From: a bacterium
GTDB lineage: Bacteria; Armatimonadota; Zipacnadia; Zipacnadales; UBA11051
NCBI GenBank assembly: GCA_021372615.1
Contig: JAJFUB010000128.1
Location: 1-38,811 of the forward strand
Reading direction: 5' to 3'
DNA: 38,811 nucleotides
Positions 3,981 to 35,930 of this stretch are shown piece by piece. The notes under the pieces were generated by a model. The model saw only the letters and a list, made by a program, of their open reading frames with translations, made no database searches and was not told the origin of the DNA. The stretch's first letter is position 1; every line of letters begins with the position of its first letter. A program made the position numbers and the translations under genes.

Positions 3981-4094
3981 GCGTCCAGCATCCACTTTCT
4001 GCCTGCACCCCACACTTTTTCCACCGAACACTCCCCCACCAAGACGTCCGCGTCCACGTCTCGCCCCTTGACGCCGCCCGGCCCCACATTCCCC

Positions 4095-4123
4095 TTGCCC
4101 ATGTCCCCCCCGTTGACTATACT
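4095..4123 (+). promoter_or_regulatory. Promoter of the triple-domain deoxyribosyltransferase/TIR-like gene
   Basis: TTGCCC (4095-4100), 17 nt, then TATACT (4118-4123). The -10 is identical to that of the str and outer-membrane gene promoters of this window. A start near 4130 would give a leader of about 95 nt before the ATG at 4227. An overlapping TTGACT at 4113 is not used as a -35 in this reading because no -10 lies 16-18 nt beyond it. Confidence 0.6.
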
Positions 4124-4226
4124 CGCGTTACGCCTGACCTGGCGCCAGGGCGCGGCGTCAGCAAGGGAGACAGGCGCACACTCCGCGGCGGCGTGGCGGC
4201 AAGGGGGCCGCGACGGGAGGGAACCG

Positions 4227-6479
4227 ATGAGCCAGGATCAGACGGACGCGAAGCAGAGAGTCTGCAAGAGGTCTCAGAATCTGCTCCAAGAGGTGGGCAC
4301 AGACCGGCGTCGCCGCGTGATGAAGCGCTGCTTCATGACCGGCAAGCAGTGCATCTTCTCTTCGAACACGTCGGGCCCACCCGCCACGATGACCTGTGGC
4401 GACCTCAGCGTGTTCGTTATCACCCCCTTCAAGACCAACTTCGATGCCTTCGACGACTGGAGCCTCTTCCCATACCTGGAGCACGAGTATGGCCTCTGTG
4501 GGGACAACCTCCGTCGCGCAGACCACGTGCGCTCCACTGGCTACATCGTGTGCGAGAAGATCTGCCACGTGCTGCAAGAGACCGACCTGGTCATTGCCGA
4601 CATCACCTTCCCCAACCCGAATGTCTTCTATGAACTGGGCCTGGCCTACGGCCTGGAGCGGCCGATTATCTTCATGGTCAATGATGCCGACAAGACCTCC
4701 CCGCACGGCGTGATGCGCAACGATGCCCTCCGGAACTGCCTGGCCCTGGACGACAAGAAGGTATTGCTCTACCCCGGGGTGGCCCCAATCAACCCAGAGT
4801 CATCACCCTACGCTCTGGAGGAGCACGTCACGACGCCACCGCAGGCCCAGGGCATGGTGCGCGAACTGAAGATCTCGGTACTCAAGACCAAGCCCGCGCG
4901 GCCGCGGGTGCCGGGACACTCGGAAGCCCCCGACGACATCACGCTCGACGTCTACGGTCTCCTCGAAGGGGCGGTGGCCGTGGCCATGTCCGATATCGTG
5001 AGGGAAGTGCAGGCCAAGGAGGACAAGGCGAAGGCCCCGTGGGAGCAAGTACTCAGCGCGCTGGCGGACGAGAGTAACGGCAAGCGCGAGCCCCTCAAGC
5101 AGGCCAACATGATTGAGGTGGGGCCGGCAGCGACTTTCCAGGCTGTCGCCGAGGCTCTGGGGAGTTCCTTCTGCACGATCATTGACGTCAGTGAGAACGA
5201 TCCTCTCGGCCTGTTCTGGCTGGGCTACTGCCACGGTCGGGGCCTGGACGCCATCCCCTTCGACCGCAAGCCCATCCAGCCGGTCGCCGAGGACACGCAC
5301 GAGATCGAGCCGAACCCGCGTCTGTGTCCGGGGGCCCGCAAGCGCCTGGCCTTCGATATCCGTGCGCTGTGGTACATGGAGCATGACGACCAGAACGCCG
5401 CCGGCCTCAAGAGCGAGATCCAGGACATACTCACTCGCCTCCTCGAGCGGGATCTGCCGGACCGGCAGCGGCGGGCCTTCTGGGACCGGTTCCCCCGCGA
5501 GAAGGAAATGAAGATCCTCACCGGCGCCATCCACAACGACACGCTCAACCGCGAGATGGTCGGCGACTGGGATGTCCGCACCGTCTCGGACCTCGTGTCC
5601 TATCTCACTCAGGTGCGCGAGCCCAGCAGCATCAAGCTCGCGACCCCGCTCTACTCACCCGAACATGCGTACCCCAAGGACAAGCCCAACCGGGAGGTAT
5701 TCCTCCAGGAGTTCTACGCTGGCATAGGCAGTGAGTTGAGCAGTTGCAGCGCGGTCGTGATCGCCTCCGCTGACGTTAACCCGGTCACCGAGTACTTGCT
5801 GCACAGGGTCTACGGCCTGGGCGAGCCGGTTCCGGAGCCGTGGACGGACCCCAGCGCGCTGTGCGGCTACGTCGCGCTCAAGCGCTTCCCGGCACCCAAC
5901 AAGACCAGGCAGGATGGCGCTGCGCCGCAGGACCAGGCCAGGCGAGCGACCGACGAGGAAGGCTTCACAAGACGGTTCTATTCCGAGGTGCACCTGGCTC
6001 GCGGCAGGAAGCAGGCTGACCGCGGCTTCGTCCGCTACGTGTATGGCAAGCCCGTGAAGCCGCTGCTCGAGAACTACAAGGCCCAGGACGATCCCGGCGA
6101 GTTCAAGCTCCTCGGCCACCTGCTTGTCGCCAGGTGGTCGGGCGAGACGGAGGCTGACAGACGGCGCGGCCGTGACGAAGAGCAACTCATCGTGCTCCTC
6201 AATGGCGTTAGCGGGCCGGCCACTTCGGCGCTCGCGGAGATACTCACCGGCGGCCCCAAGACCAAGCCACAGATGATGGCGAAGGCCGAGGAGATGTTGG
6301 CCGAACTCAATGAGGAGCTCAATAAGCCAGGCTGGGATGCGGTGGAGGCGATCGTGGAGGTACAGATAAAGCCAGCCCGGCCCGCCCAGATCCACAAGTA
6401 CAGAGACAGCCGAGAGGTGGTTGGCTGGAGCTACGCTGTGCATCCCCGTCCTTTCACTCGCCGCTCGGTCGTCTCCTGA
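4227..6479 (+). CDS. Large protein with one intact and two degenerate nucleoside-deoxyribosyltransferase/TIR-like domains
   Basis: 750 residues from ATG 4227, chosen because GGGAGGG lies 5 nt upstream; an in-frame ATG at 4068 lacks a ribosome-binding site. After a short Cys-containing N-terminus (KRCFMTGKQC) comes a domain with VFVITPF, then ADIT (D125) and NPNVFYELGLAYGL (E136). This is the pattern of the 2-deoxyribosyltransferase-like/TIR-like (DRHyd) superfamily, whose Glu attacks N-glycosidic bonds. The motif recurs as IIDVSENDPLGLFWLGY (D320, W331 replacing the Glu) and as VIASADVNPVTEYLLHRVYGL (S514 and L524 at the D and E positions). A C-terminal region with VLLNGVSGPATSALAEILTG (after about residue 645) is unrecognised. 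The protein has no signal peptide, so it is probably cytosolic. Such domains are often NAD- or nucleotide-cleaving effectors in defence systems, but that role is inferred. It sits alone on the opposite strand between rpoC and rpsL. Confidence 0.75.
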   Translation: MSQDQTDAKQRVCKRSQNLLQEVGTDRRRRVMKRCFMTGKQCIFSSNTSGPPATMTCGDLSVFVITPFKTNFDAFDDWSLFPYLEHEYGLCGDNLRRADHVRSTGYIVCEKICHVLQETDLVIADITFPNPNVFYELGLAYGLERPIIFMVNDADKTSPHGVMRNDALRNCLALDDKKVLLYPGVAPINPESSPYALEEHVTTPPQAQGMVRELKISVLKTKPARPRVPGHSEAPDDITLDVYGLLEGAVAVAMSDIVREVQAKEDKAKAPWEQVLSALADESNGKREPLKQANMIEVGPAATFQAVAEALGSSFCTIIDVSENDPLGLFWLGYCHGRGLDAIPFDRKPIQPVAEDTHEIEPNPRLCPGARKRLAFDIRALWYMEHDDQNAAGLKSEIQDILTRLLERDLPDRQRRAFWDRFPREKEMKILTGAIHNDTLNREMVGDWDVRTVSDLVSYLTQVREPSSIKLATPLYSPEHAYPKDKPNREVFLQEFYAGIGSELSSCSAVVIASADVNPVTEYLLHRVYGLGEPVPEPWTDPSALCGYVALKRFPAPNKTRQDGAAPQDQARRATDEEGFTRRFYSEVHLARGRKQADRGFVRYVYGKPVKPLLENYKAQDDPGEFKLLGHLLVARWSGETEADRRRGRDEEQLIVLLNGVSGPATSALAEILTGGPKTKPQMMAKAEEMLAELNEELNKPGWDAVEAIVEVQIKPARPAQIHKYRDSREVVGWSYAVHPRPFTRRSVVS

Positions 6480-32210: not shown

Positions 32211-32678
32211 CTAGATCGGGAACTTGATGTTCGCCGAGACGCCGACGCCCGGCACCGTCCTCAGCGAGTTCTTGGTGCTGATGGGCAGCAGGCCGCGCGC
32301 GCGGACCGTGCCCAGGAGGTTCAGCTCCACCTCGCCGACCGCCCGCACCTTGTCCACCTGCGCCTTGGGGCCCATCACCTGCGCGGCCCCCACTGCCGTG
32401 CCCTTGCCGCCCCCCAGCCGCATGATCGGCACCACCTTCGTGTACCCCTCCACCGCCGCATCATGCTGGGCCAGGGCGCTATTGATCGCCTTGTTGATCT
32501 GCCCGGAGAAGTGCTCGACCACCCACCCGATGCCGAAGATCTTCACCAGATCGCCGATGCTGCCACCCAGGTCCAGGGCTTGCACGGGGTTCGGCGCCGT
32601 GCCGACGCCGAGCAGGAAGGCCCACATCAGCAGCATCACCGCCAGCCACGTCCACTTGTTGCGCTTCATCATGCTCAT
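32211..32678 (-). CDS. Exported protein with a novel C-terminal domain shared with its neighbour
   Basis: 155 residues from ATG 32678 (ATG 32672 is also possible; GAAGGGG lies upstream). The N-terminus KRNKWTWLAVMLLMWAFLLGVGTAPNPVQA is a signal peptide or anchor. A short amphipathic part (LDLGGSIGDLVKIFGIGWVVEHFSGQINKAI) precedes a domain of about 75 residues containing VVPIMRLGGGKGTAVGAAQV, GPKAQVDKVRAVGEVEL and LLPISTKNSLRTVPGVGVSA. The same motif order ends the upstream gene at 32689-33453. The function is unknown; the regular beta character and export signal suggest an envelope-associated component. It lies 10 nt downstream of that neighbour, so they form one operon. Confidence 0.65.
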   Translation of the reverse strand: MSMMKRNKWTWLAVMLLMWAFLLGVGTAPNPVQALDLGGSIGDLVKIFGIGWVVEHFSGQINKAINSALAQHDAAVEGYTKVVPIMRLGGGKGTAVGAAQVMGPKAQVDKVRAVGEVELNLLGTVRARGLLPISTKNSLRTVPGVGVSANIKFPI

Positions 32679-32688
32679 CGCCCCTTCC

Positions 32689-33453
32689 CTAGAGTCTCAG
32701 GTCGCCCAGCCCGGTCACGCCGACGCCCTGGACGCGGTCGAGCTGCTTGCCTGGTGTCTTGGTGGAGATCGGCACGTAGATGTCGATCTCGAGGAACTTC
32801 CGGAAGTCGATGCTGAACTGCGCCACGGCCTGGGTGCGTTCCACCCGGCTCTCGGGGCCGTTCACGCGGGCCACGCCCAGGCGCGTCCCCTCCAGTAGGC
32901 TCAGGATGGGCACGATTCTGTCCTCATACGGCTCGGACGGCTGCCACGTGCTCTCGGTAGTCGTCGCGGCCTCGCGCGGGCCGCCGAGGGCCTCGCGCAG
33001 GTTGCCGGCCCAGCGCTCAGCCAGAGCCTGCTGGCCTTCCTGCAGGACGCGGGCGTCCTCGATGGTCACCGTCACCAGGGAGACCTCGCGCCCTGATATG
33101 ACATACGCCCCCTGGCTGGTCTGCACGAGGACATCGGCCGCGCGGAGGCCGGCGCGGATCTGCCGGTTGATCCGGTCCGCGACGATCACGGCCCGCTCGT
33201 AGCCGCTCACGTCGCCGGACGCCACCGCCAGGACGGCCACCTCCCTGTCCGCCACGGTCACTCGGCCGCCATCGAGCCCCGACACCGATACTGCCTCGAC
33301 CCGGGCCTCGGGCTGCTCCGCGGCGCAGACCGCGGCCGGGTGGAGCGCCGGCGCCCCGCCCCCCACCAGCCGCCCCAGGCCGAACATGCCCACGCAGGCC
33401 AGCACTAACGCCAGGCCCGGCGCCATACGACGTCTGAGGGTCTGAACTGCCAT
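32689..33453 (-). CDS. Exported protein: MscS-type periplasmic domain fused to the novel C-terminal domain
   Basis: 254 residues from ATG 33453 with AAGGAGGG 5 nt upstream. A membrane anchor or signal (about 9-32) is followed by a region (about 50-150) that reads like the periplasmic extension found before some MscS-like channels: a VLAVASGDVSGYERAVIVADRI strand-helix, YVISGREVSLVTVTIEDARV, then ALAERWAGNLREAL. No channel segment follows. Instead the C-terminal part (about 175-254) carries IVPILSLLEGTRLGVARVNGP, ESRVERTQAVAQFSI, VPISTKTPGKQLDRVQGVGV, the same motif order as the 155-residue neighbour. The MscS link is from memory of that family and is moderate. First gene of a two-gene operon. 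Confidence 0.65.
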   Translation of the reverse strand: MAVQTLRRRMAPGLALVLACVGMFGLGRLVGGGAPALHPAAVCAAEQPEARVEAVSVSGLDGGRVTVADREVAVLAVASGDVSGYERAVIVADRINRQIRAGLRAADVLVQTSQGAYVISGREVSLVTVTIEDARVLQEGQQALAERWAGNLREALGGPREAATTTESTWQPSEPYEDRIVPILSLLEGTRLGVARVNGPESRVERTQAVAQFSIDFRKFLEIDIYVPISTKTPGKQLDRVQGVGVTGLGDLRL

Positions 33454-33840: not shown

Positions 33841-34878
33841 CTACCCTTCCCCCCGTGCGCGTAGCTGTCCGCAGGCGGCGTCTATGTCACCACCCTTGCT
33901 GTGGCGGAGGCTCACATTCAGCCCGTGCCGCCGACAGGCTTGTACGAAGGCACTCACTCGCGGATAGGCCGGCGGCTTGAATCGAGCGTGGGATACCTCG
34001 TTGAAAGGGATCACGTTCAGATGGTGCGGCAGGCCCTTGAGGAGTTTGCCCAGGCGCTCGGCATCATCAAACGAGTCATTGACACTCTCGATGAGCACGT
34101 AGGCGAAGGTCACCGGGCGGCCGCCATGGGCCTCGGAGAAGTGGCGGCAGGCCTCCAACAACTGCGCCAGCGTGTACCGCGCCGTCCCGGGCATCAGCTC
34201 CCGCCGCTGTTCGTCGCTGCCGGCGTTCAGTGACACCGCCAGCTCCGTGGCCGGCCCTTCATCGGCATAGCGATGGATGCCCGGTACGATGCCCGAGGTG
34301 GAGATGGTCAGCCGCCGGGGTGACATGCCGAAGGCCTCGGGCAGGATCAGCCGCCGCACGGCCTTCACGACGTTGGCGTAGTTGTGGAACGGCTCGCCCA
34401 TGCCCATGAAGACGACATTGCGCACGCGCTCGCCCAGGCTGTTGATCGTGACGACCTGCTGGATGATCTCCCCCGCCGTCAGACTCCGCTGCAGCTTGAG
34501 CTGCCCCGTGGCACAGAAGGCGCACTTGACGGCGCACCCGACCTGGCTGGACACGCACGCGGTGTAGCTGCCGTCCATGCTGATGCGCACGCACTCGACT
34601 GTCTGGCCGTCGGCCAGCTCCAGCAGGAGCTTGGTGGTCTCCTCGCTCTGCGACACGGCACCGGGCACGAGCGGGCCGCAGCGGAAGGCCGTCTCCAGTT
34701 GCGCGCGCAGGTCGCGCGGCAGGTCAGTCATGTCGGCGAAGCTGGCGGCGCTGCGCTGGTAGGCCCAGGCGAAGATCTGGCCGGCGCGATAGGCAGGCTG
34801 CCGTCGCTCCTTGAGCCAGGCAGTCAGCCCGTCCAGTTCGAGTTCATAGAGCAGGGGTAGACGCTGCGGTGTAGTCAT
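33841..34878 (-). CDS. rlmN: 23S rRNA/tRNA adenine-C2 methyltransferase RlmN
   Basis: 345 residues from ATG 34878; an in-frame TTG at 34893 is the alternative and neither has a good ribosome-binding site. Radical-SAM enzyme that methylates A2503 of 23S rRNA and A37 of some tRNAs. The cluster motif CAVKCAFC (C-x3-C-x2-C) follows SSQVG. VVFMGMGEPFHNYANV is the family's SAM-binding motif, ISTSGIVPGI and NVIPFNEV are conserved, and the C-terminal HSKGGDIDAACGQL supplies the methyl-carrying Cys. Its start faces the promoter at 34897-34944, and the tandem operators there end only about 19 nt from it, so it may share that control. Confidence 0.95.
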   Translation of the reverse strand: MTTPQRLPLLYELELDGLTAWLKERRQPAYRAGQIFAWAYQRSAASFADMTDLPRDLRAQLETAFRCGPLVPGAVSQSEETTKLLLELADGQTVECVRISMDGSYTACVSSQVGCAVKCAFCATGQLKLQRSLTAGEIIQQVVTINSLGERVRNVVFMGMGEPFHNYANVVKAVRRLILPEAFGMSPRRLTISTSGIVPGIHRYADEGPATELAVSLNAGSDEQRRELMPGTARYTLAQLLEACRHFSEAHGGRPVTFAYVLIESVNDSFDDAERLGKLLKGLPHHLNVIPFNEVSHARFKPPAYPRVSAFVQACRRHGLNVSLRHSKGGDIDAACGQLRARGEG

Positions 34879-34896: not shown

Positions 34897-34944
34897 TACT
34901 ATTGACAGTAGTACGAATAACTGTCTATACTATGGACGTTAGTA
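34897..34944 (+). promoter_or_regulatory. Promoter with two matched operator sites
   Basis: A TTGACA -35 (34902-34907), 18 nt, TATACT -10 (34926-34931). Overlaid are two 17-bp interrupted palindromes TACTA-N7-TAGTA: TACTATTGACAGTAGTA (34897-34913), covering the -35, and TACTATGGACGTTAGTA (34928-34944), covering the -10 end and start site. Their starts are 31 bp apart, about three helical turns, so two dimers would bind one face. A third inverted pair, GACAGT/ACTGTC, lies between them. The sites drive the secreted zinc-ribbon gene at 34979. The 5'-TACTA and TAGTA-3' ends recall BlaI/MecI-type operators, but no such regulator is in the window. Confidence 0.75.
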
Positions 34945-34978: not shown

Positions 34979-35404
34979 ATGCTTTCACGGATTGCGCAAA
35001 CGATCTTGGTGGTCATCGTGGCTGCCGGGCCGCTCTTCGCGCAGACTCCGCTGCGCATGTGGTACCGTGGCGGCTTCGAGGGCTGGACCGAACTGCGGCG
35101 TGATCCCGCTCCCGGTTGGTACTACACACCCTCCCAGAACTCTGCCTATCCGCTGAACGAGTCGGCGTATGGCCAGCCGGTGCCATGCGCCAAGTGCGGC
35201 CACACACACTACCCGGGGCAGGACGTGTGCCCGTACTGTGGCGACCGTTGTGCGGCCGGGGGCAACGACCTGGATCCCGACACCGTCTACACCCAGCGCC
35301 GCCTGCCGGGGCAGTACTGGTATGAGAAGCAGCCGCACTACCGCTTCAGCGCCCCGATGCGCCTGCGCGGCACGTACCTGAAGTACAAGTGGCCCTACGA
35401 CTAG
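34979..35404 (+). CDS. Small exported protein with a four-cysteine zinc ribbon
   Basis: 141 residues from ATG 34979 with GGAGGT 8 nt upstream. MLSRIAQTILVVIVAAGPLFAQ is a signal peptide. The mature protein is Tyr/Trp/Pro-rich at both ends (LRMWYRGGFEGWTELRR, GQYWYEKQPHYRF), with a central CAKCGHTHYPGQDVCPYCG zinc ribbon and one further Cys. Zinc ribbons are usually cytosolic, so an exported one is unusual. No family recognised. Its promoter carries two operators, which points to switched expression rather than housekeeping. The next gene, also exported and Tyr/Gly-rich, starts 82 nt downstream. Confidence 0.65.
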   Translation: MLSRIAQTILVVIVAAGPLFAQTPLRMWYRGGFEGWTELRRDPAPGWYYTPSQNSAYPLNESAYGQPVPCAKCGHTHYPGQDVCPYCGDRCAAGGNDLDPDTVYTQRRLPGQYWYEKQPHYRFSAPMRLRGTYLKYKWPYD

Positions 35405-35486: not shown

Positions 35487-35930
35487 ATGGAGATGTTTGC
35501 ACGCTGTCTACCCGTAATGCTGGTGATTGCGGTGGTGGGGACGGTCCTGCTGGGGCCCGCGGCAACCCCGGCCGCCGCGGACAGGAACCACACTGGCGAG
35601 GTCATCGCGGGGATGATCATCGGCGGCCTCATCGGCGCCGCGCTGGCTGATGACGATCACGGCCCACGCCACTGCGGCCCGCCCCCGGGCGATCCGTACC
35701 GGCGCTACGATCCCCCGCCGCGCGGCCAGTGGGTGCCGCCGGGCCGCGCCTACAACGAAGGCTACCACGACGGCTGGTACGATGGCCGCGACGTGGGCCG
35801 CCACGAAGGCTACAGCCGGGGTTATGACCGAGGCTACGGCAGCGGCTACGGCGACGGGCGCCATGACCAGTACCGCGCTGATCGCGGCTATGCCTACGGC
35901 CCCTGGTCCGGAGGCCCTTGCTGGCGCTGA
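35487..35930 (+). CDS. Exported protein with glycine zipper and Gly/Tyr/Asp/Arg repeats
   Basis: 147 residues from ATG 35487 behind AAAGGAG. A signal peptide (MFARCLPVMLVIAVVGTVLLGPAATPAAA) is followed by a glycine-zipper membrane-like segment (GEVIAGMIIGGLIGAALA), a Pro/Arg-rich linker and a repeated GY-x-x-G segment (NEGYHDGWYDGRDVGRHEGY and on, residues about 91-132). The repeats alternate charged residues with Tyr/Gly and are probably intrinsically disordered. Glycine-zipper exported proteins are often outer-membrane or stress-related. It is probably in the same unit as the zinc-ribbon gene upstream, and a hairpin ends the unit. Confidence 0.6.
   Translation: MEMFARCLPVMLVIAVVGTVLLGPAATPAAADRNHTGEVIAGMIIGGLIGAALADDDHGPRHCGPPPGDPYRRYDPPPRGQWVPPGRAYNEGYHDGWYDGRDVGRHEGYSRGYDRGYGSGYGDGRHDQYRADRGYAYGPWSGGPCWR

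Follow-up and report, generated by a model that had tools for sequence, protein, structure and literature searches.

Gene pairs encoding a BlaI-type regulator and an M56 peptidase are widespread, and to our knowledge their targets and signals are mostly not known, apart from those that act in resistance to antibiotics and in the copper switch of cyanobacteria. The closest known logic to the system described here is PetR-PetP of Synechocystis sp. PCC 6803, in which copper activates the M56 protease PetP and PetR is degraded (PMC7896320, PMC13421787). The two systems share a BlaI-family regulator, a BlaR1-type M56 membrane protease without a penicillin sensor and a small regulon, and neither is a beta-lactam system. 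PetR-PetP differs in being cyanobacterial and copper dependent and in switching plastocyanin and cytochrome c6; its regulator PetR also both represses and activates, and the targets here are secreted proteins instead. BlaI_0696 of Clostridium thermocellum is similar in operator geometry (6-bp half-sites 5 bp apart) and in autoregulation, but its dyad reads GTCTAT-N5-ATAGAC as opposed to TACTAY-N5-RTAGTA here, and its regulon of three operons is different (PMC8457756). Each BlaI_0696 target has two dyads (PMC8457756), as in the locus described below, whereas many promoters in our genomes show a single recognizable dyad. The staphylococcal BlaI-BlaR1 and MecI-MecR1 systems likewise comprise a BlaI-family repressor, an autoregulated gene pair and operators lying over the promoter, and the M56 protein found here resembles the transmembrane and protease part of staphylococcal BlaR1; unlike those systems, ours is without a penicillin-binding sensor, the TACANNTGTA operator core or a recognized resistance gene. 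CopY/CopR regulators belong to the same winged-helix superfamily as the BlaI protein reported here, which differs from them in lacking a C-terminal CxC and in its operator, with no copper exporter or other metal export gene recognized among its targets.

The window (the whole 38,811-nucleotide stretch analyzed, contig C128 of a 6.41-Mb genome in 171 contigs) contains two 17-bp dyads, operator O1 (TACTATTGACAGTAGTA, 34897-34913) and operator O2 (TACTATGGACGTTAGTA, 34928-34944), both read directly and agreeing with the original prediction of two matched TACTA-N7-TAGTA sites. Their starts are 31 bp apart, or 2.95 turns at 10.5 bp per turn, as expected for the predicted placement on the same face of the DNA. 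O1 and O2 are the sole matches in the window to TACTATNGACNNTAGTA with up to three mismatches (0.15 expected from shuffles) and the only exact instances of TACTA-N7-TAGTA, for which shuffles yield 0.68 matches at up to two mismatches. The recognized form of the sites is TACTAY-N5-RTAGTA, and the canonical TACANNTGTA core of BlaI/MecI/CopY operators (PMC7253601) is absent.

Both dyads lie on a sigma70-type promoter, TTGACA-18-TATACT (34902-34931, plus strand), which matches the consensus at 11 of 12 positions in a promoter scan with a shuffle mean of 0.1. The −35 hexamer (TTGACA, 34902-34907) is contained within O1, and O2 overlaps the end of the −10 hexamer (TATACT, 34926-34931) and the expected start. 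The scan thus bears out the repressor architecture that had been proposed, with operators overlapping the core promoter at the −35 and at the −10/start. Downstream is a gene (34979-35404, plus strand) for a 141-aa protein with a signal peptide and a CxxCG…CPYCG zinc ribbon, consistent with the predicted secreted zinc-ribbon product and belonging to a family with the pattern WYRGxFxG…LPGQYWY. Pfam zinc-ribbon models match it only below cut-off, and a fold search with its structure model (mean pLDDT 83) returned no match at E < 1. The second target gene (35487-35930, plus strand) encodes a secreted glycine/tyrosine-rich protein of 147 aa with homology to a glycine-rich family (E 3e-18), and is likely cotranscribed with the zinc-ribbon gene. 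Homologs lie 3′ of the zinc-ribbon gene in most genomes with blaI, and in other genomes often have an operator of their own. Pfam and NCBIfam searches gave no family name for either product.

On the other side of the operators is rlmN (33841-34878, minus strand; TIGR00048, 355.8 bits), the ATG of which is 18 bp from O1. A weak divergent promoter-like sequence directed toward it, TAGACA-18-AATAGT (34898-34927, minus strand; 9 of 12 matches), lies under O1 and O2, and an effect on rlmN is therefore possible. The proximity to rlmN mentioned by the original prediction holds in this genome and in its nearest relative (G001), but the adjacency is not kept in G016; we dropped rlmN as a feature of the system. 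Beyond rlmN, two adjoining minus-strand ORFs (32211-32678 and 32689-33453) have signal-like N-termini, a common C-terminal pattern (GPxxxVxxxxAV…PISTK…VxGVGV) and no Pfam or NCBIfam match, and are possibly a tandem pair of unnamed secreted proteins. Elsewhere in the window, an 803-aa ORF (4068-6479, plus strand) lies between the fusA/ribosomal-protein genes and rpoC, an unusual insertion into a neighborhood that is usually conserved; its match to a nucleoside deoxyribosyltransferase-like family is subthreshold (PF05014, 22.1 of 28.8 bits).

The genome contains a single BlaI-family gene (Penicillinase_R, PF03965; G000:C80:13218-13661), which encodes a protein of 148 aa scoring 94.7 bits against a curated cut-off of 22.6. 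Its own promoter carries the dyad TACTACTATAAATAGTA, ending 48 bp 5′ of the ATG with TTGACA just upstream, so that the regulator sought on the basis of the original prediction, one bearing the same site in its own promoter, is the only BlaI-family protein of the genome. The solved structure nearest to it by sequence is PDB 2g9w (E 1.5e-14), which we take to be Mycobacterium tuberculosis BlaI (Rv1846c). Membership of the CopY group was rejected: the metal motif of CopY is a C-terminal Cys-X-Cys (PMC7253601), which is absent from this protein, whose one Cys lies near residue 42 and whose sequence ends in …RRKKTGKQR. TIGR02698 (CopY/CopR) matches it below the cut-off (45.8 of 121.95 bits). The next gene after blaI encodes a 338-aa M56 peptidase (PF05569, 42.3 bits).

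Pattern searches located the same motif elsewhere in the genome, upstream of secreted-protein genes and of blaI, as had been anticipated. TACTATNGACNNTAGTA occurs three times, as O1, as O2 and as TACTATTGACAATAGTA, which is perfectly palindromic and lies 53 bp upstream of the ORF of another secreted protein. The bare motif TACTA-N7-TAGTA is found in 10 places compared with 7 for a reversed control; with so modest an enrichment, the evidence rests on placement and conservation. One of the ten precedes blaI, two are in the window and the rest precede products with signal or lipoprotein peptides, although at one of them (on contig C121) the ORF start failed the automatic rule and was picked by eye. 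Among 111 distinct sites read from 89 stretches of this genome and its relatives, 91 have an ORF with a signal peptide starting no more than 160 bp downstream, compared with 61 of 734 positions drawn at random from the same stretches (8.3%), signal peptides being called by a simple hydrophobicity rule and all ORF and signal rules of thumb being applied alike to the control. At many sites, a −35 or −10 element lies inside the dyad. Recurrent targets are the zinc-ribbon WYRG protein, the glycine-rich protein, Ser/Gln-rich secreted proteins and a lipoprotein family with an LTIxLxVxDxxG…VTVWVDG stretch. No beta-lactamase or penicillin-binding protein was recognized in the approximately 90 downstream ORFs read by eye, library scans covering part of the products, nor was any plastocyanin or cytochrome c6 among the ORFs read.

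The nearest named BlaI loci are in metagenome-assembled genomes of Candidatus Zipacnadia, candidate division WS1 and Armatimonadetes, Zipacnadia being a proposed class of the Armatimonadota (PMC10290634). Across 41 genomes of the order, a BlaI ortholog is present in 30, and a profile search identified the zinc-ribbon family in 33. An exact N7 dyad is present within 250 bp upstream of blaI in 27 of the 28 loci with usable upstream DNA, and with one mismatch in the 28th; spacers of N5, N6, N8 or N9 gave no match upstream of the blaI and zinc-ribbon orthologs with up to one mismatch. The motif is conserved before the zinc-ribbon orthologs, a point on which the original prediction could have failed: an exact site is found upstream in 24 of the 26 genomes with blaI (the exceptions being G017, with one-mismatch sites, and G010, with none) and in 0 of the 7 without it (Fisher 8e-6), a p-value that overstates the association because all blaI-lacking genomes lie in family f3 (genera g5 and g16 and one genome of g10), related genomes are not independent and the true losses may be one or two. 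Similarly, and to be read under the same restriction, genomes with blaI carry a mean of 5.2 copies of TACTAYNNNNNRTAGTA against 0.9 of its reversed control, and those without it 0.7 against 0.4 (Mann-Whitney 2e-6). In f3, the sites are retained by those members of g10 and g19 in which blaI is present, and one genome in which blaI was not found yet has four motifs (G028) is 79% complete. Most zinc-ribbon orthologs are preceded by the O1 sequence or by TACTATTGACANTAGTA, the latter being the usual dyad, with the −35 at its center. A second dyad with up to one mismatch follows the first in approximately 15 of these promoters, in about 14 genomes besides this one, mostly 30 bp downstream and otherwise at 25, 31 or 33 bp.

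The zinc-ribbon orthologs of blaI-lacking genomes (L064, L065, L066, L067, and L069) are without the CxxC pairs, and the glycine-rich neighbor was not found there. Two zinc-ribbon matches (L241 in G013:C43 and L244 in G024:C124) contain one internal stop, yet have exact operators upstream. Exact N7 dyads also occur outside the order, upstream of the BlaI genes of certain Polyangia and further outgroups, so this type of operator is not unique to the order, and exact TACTA-N6-TAGTA was seen close upstream of BlaI genes in two Actinomycetota outgroups only (L185 and L190).

The sites, their placement and conservation, their occurrence together with blaI and the pairing of blaI with an M56 gene are direct observations. 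The suggestion that the dyads are AT-rich palindromes that happen to surround a strong promoter by chance draws on the near-control count of the bare motif in this genome, but is hardly credible given that sequence, spacing and position are conserved across families together with promoter placement, and the ortholog comparison refutes it in practice. It is also very unlikely that some other dyad-binding regulator owns the sites and is linked only indirectly to blaI, as dyads are almost universal in the blaI promoter, sites are missing where blaI was not found, and the BlaI dyad of C. thermocellum has the same 6-5-6 geometry (PMC8457756). The dyad in the promoter of blaI itself, the conservation before orthologs and the co-occurrence with blaI therefore make the link to BlaI well supported by comparison.

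We conclude from these sequence comparisons that O1 and O2 are very probably BlaI operators, that BlaI would repress itself and a set of secreted proteins, and that an activated M56 protease would remove it. We predict that one BlaI dimer would occupy each dyad, the two lying three helical turns apart on the same face and covering the −35 and the −10/start, and that bound BlaI would keep the zinc-ribbon gene and the downstream glycine-rich gene off. BlaI would also cover the promoter of its own blaI-M56 pair and those of approximately six other secreted-protein or lipoprotein genes. The M56 membrane protease, activated from outside the cytoplasm, would then remove BlaI and allow the set to be expressed. 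Binding, repression and proteolysis are what knowledge of the family would lead one to expect; because BlaI homologs such as PetR can also activate, repression in particular is inferred from the overlap with the promoter.

In 28 of 30 loci, blaI is followed by the M56 gene, mostly at a distance of 2-9 bp, and the partners are approximately 330-340 aa long. The M56 profile matches Staphylococcus aureus BlaR1 (E 9e-6), and the AlphaFold model (mean pLDDT 91) aligns with BlaR1 transmembrane-protease structures with Foldseek probabilities up to 1.00 at E-values of only 0.03-0.15. Pfam identifies no penicillin-binding domain on the 338-aa protein, in which only a short tail follows the final membrane helix. 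A classical response to beta-lactams or cell wall damage, with M56 in the role of BlaR1 and a regulon that would give protection from wall-directed antibiotics, would fit the family membership of both proteins and the almost exclusively extracytoplasmic targets; we regard it as improbable because the approximately 340-aa M56 protein is without a penicillin-binding domain and no beta-lactamase or penicillin-binding protein was recognized behind the sites examined, a minority of the target products having been scanned against family libraries. The trigger does not look like a penicillin. Of the proposed likeness to BlaI/MecI/CopY, the BlaI-type operator is supported, and the TACANNTGTA core, the penicillin-binding domain and the CxC are all absent. 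Its domain, autoregulatory site and gene pairing mark this as a BlaI-family operator system, and the features tested make it neither a BlaI-BlaR1 beta-lactam system nor a CopY system.

The M56 protein has His76, His85 and Cys87 between helices 2 and 3 and Cys327 in the tail past the last membrane helix, conserved in 25, 27, 25 and 25 of 27 proteins, respectively. By analogy with BlaR1, the loop and the tail probably face outwards, and the four residues form a candidate metal or redox site; metal sensing, if any, is likelier to take place in the protease than in the repressor. A PetR-PetP-like mechanism, in which these four residues bind metal or form a disulfide that switches proteolysis, is a real possibility, if short of probable, and refines BlaI repression relieved by M56 rather than competing with it, the two not being mutually exclusive. 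Besides the conservation, it is favored by the joint loss of Cys87 and Cys327 in G009 and G014 (L024 and L032), by outgroup M56 proteins, some of which have H…C in the loop and a His in the tail, and by PetP, which is activated by copper and degrades PetR (PMC7896320, PMC13421787). Against it, the topology is by analogy with BlaR1, the joint loss is probably a single event in one genus and no metal export gene was recognized among the targets. The zinc-ribbon gene was not found in G009 and G014, where operators precede other secreted proteins. As a more speculative step, the probably outward-facing His/His/Cys and the tail Cys would sense, as the signal, a change in metal or redox conditions.

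The system is best described as BlaI/M56 regulation in a new form, directed at secreted proteins. No prior report of the regulon, or of BlaI in Zipacnadia, was found in the literature searched, which included few subscription journals. An operator code that can be read from sequence provides a defined, testable set of targets in a lineage for which metagenomes are the sole source, and the four named protease residues constitute a candidate sensor. For several unnamed secreted families, namely the zinc-ribbon WYRG, glycine-rich and lipoprotein families, the regulon offers an initial hint of their context. More tentatively, across this order of uncultured Armatimonadota the protease of the BlaI/M56 system may use a His2Cys2 site, in place of a penicillin sensor, to read the metal or redox state outside the cytoplasm, and may control a regulon consisting almost entirely of secreted proteins and lipoproteins. 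If so, the system would serve a response of the envelope or cell surface that belongs to neither of the known cases, beta-lactam and copper.
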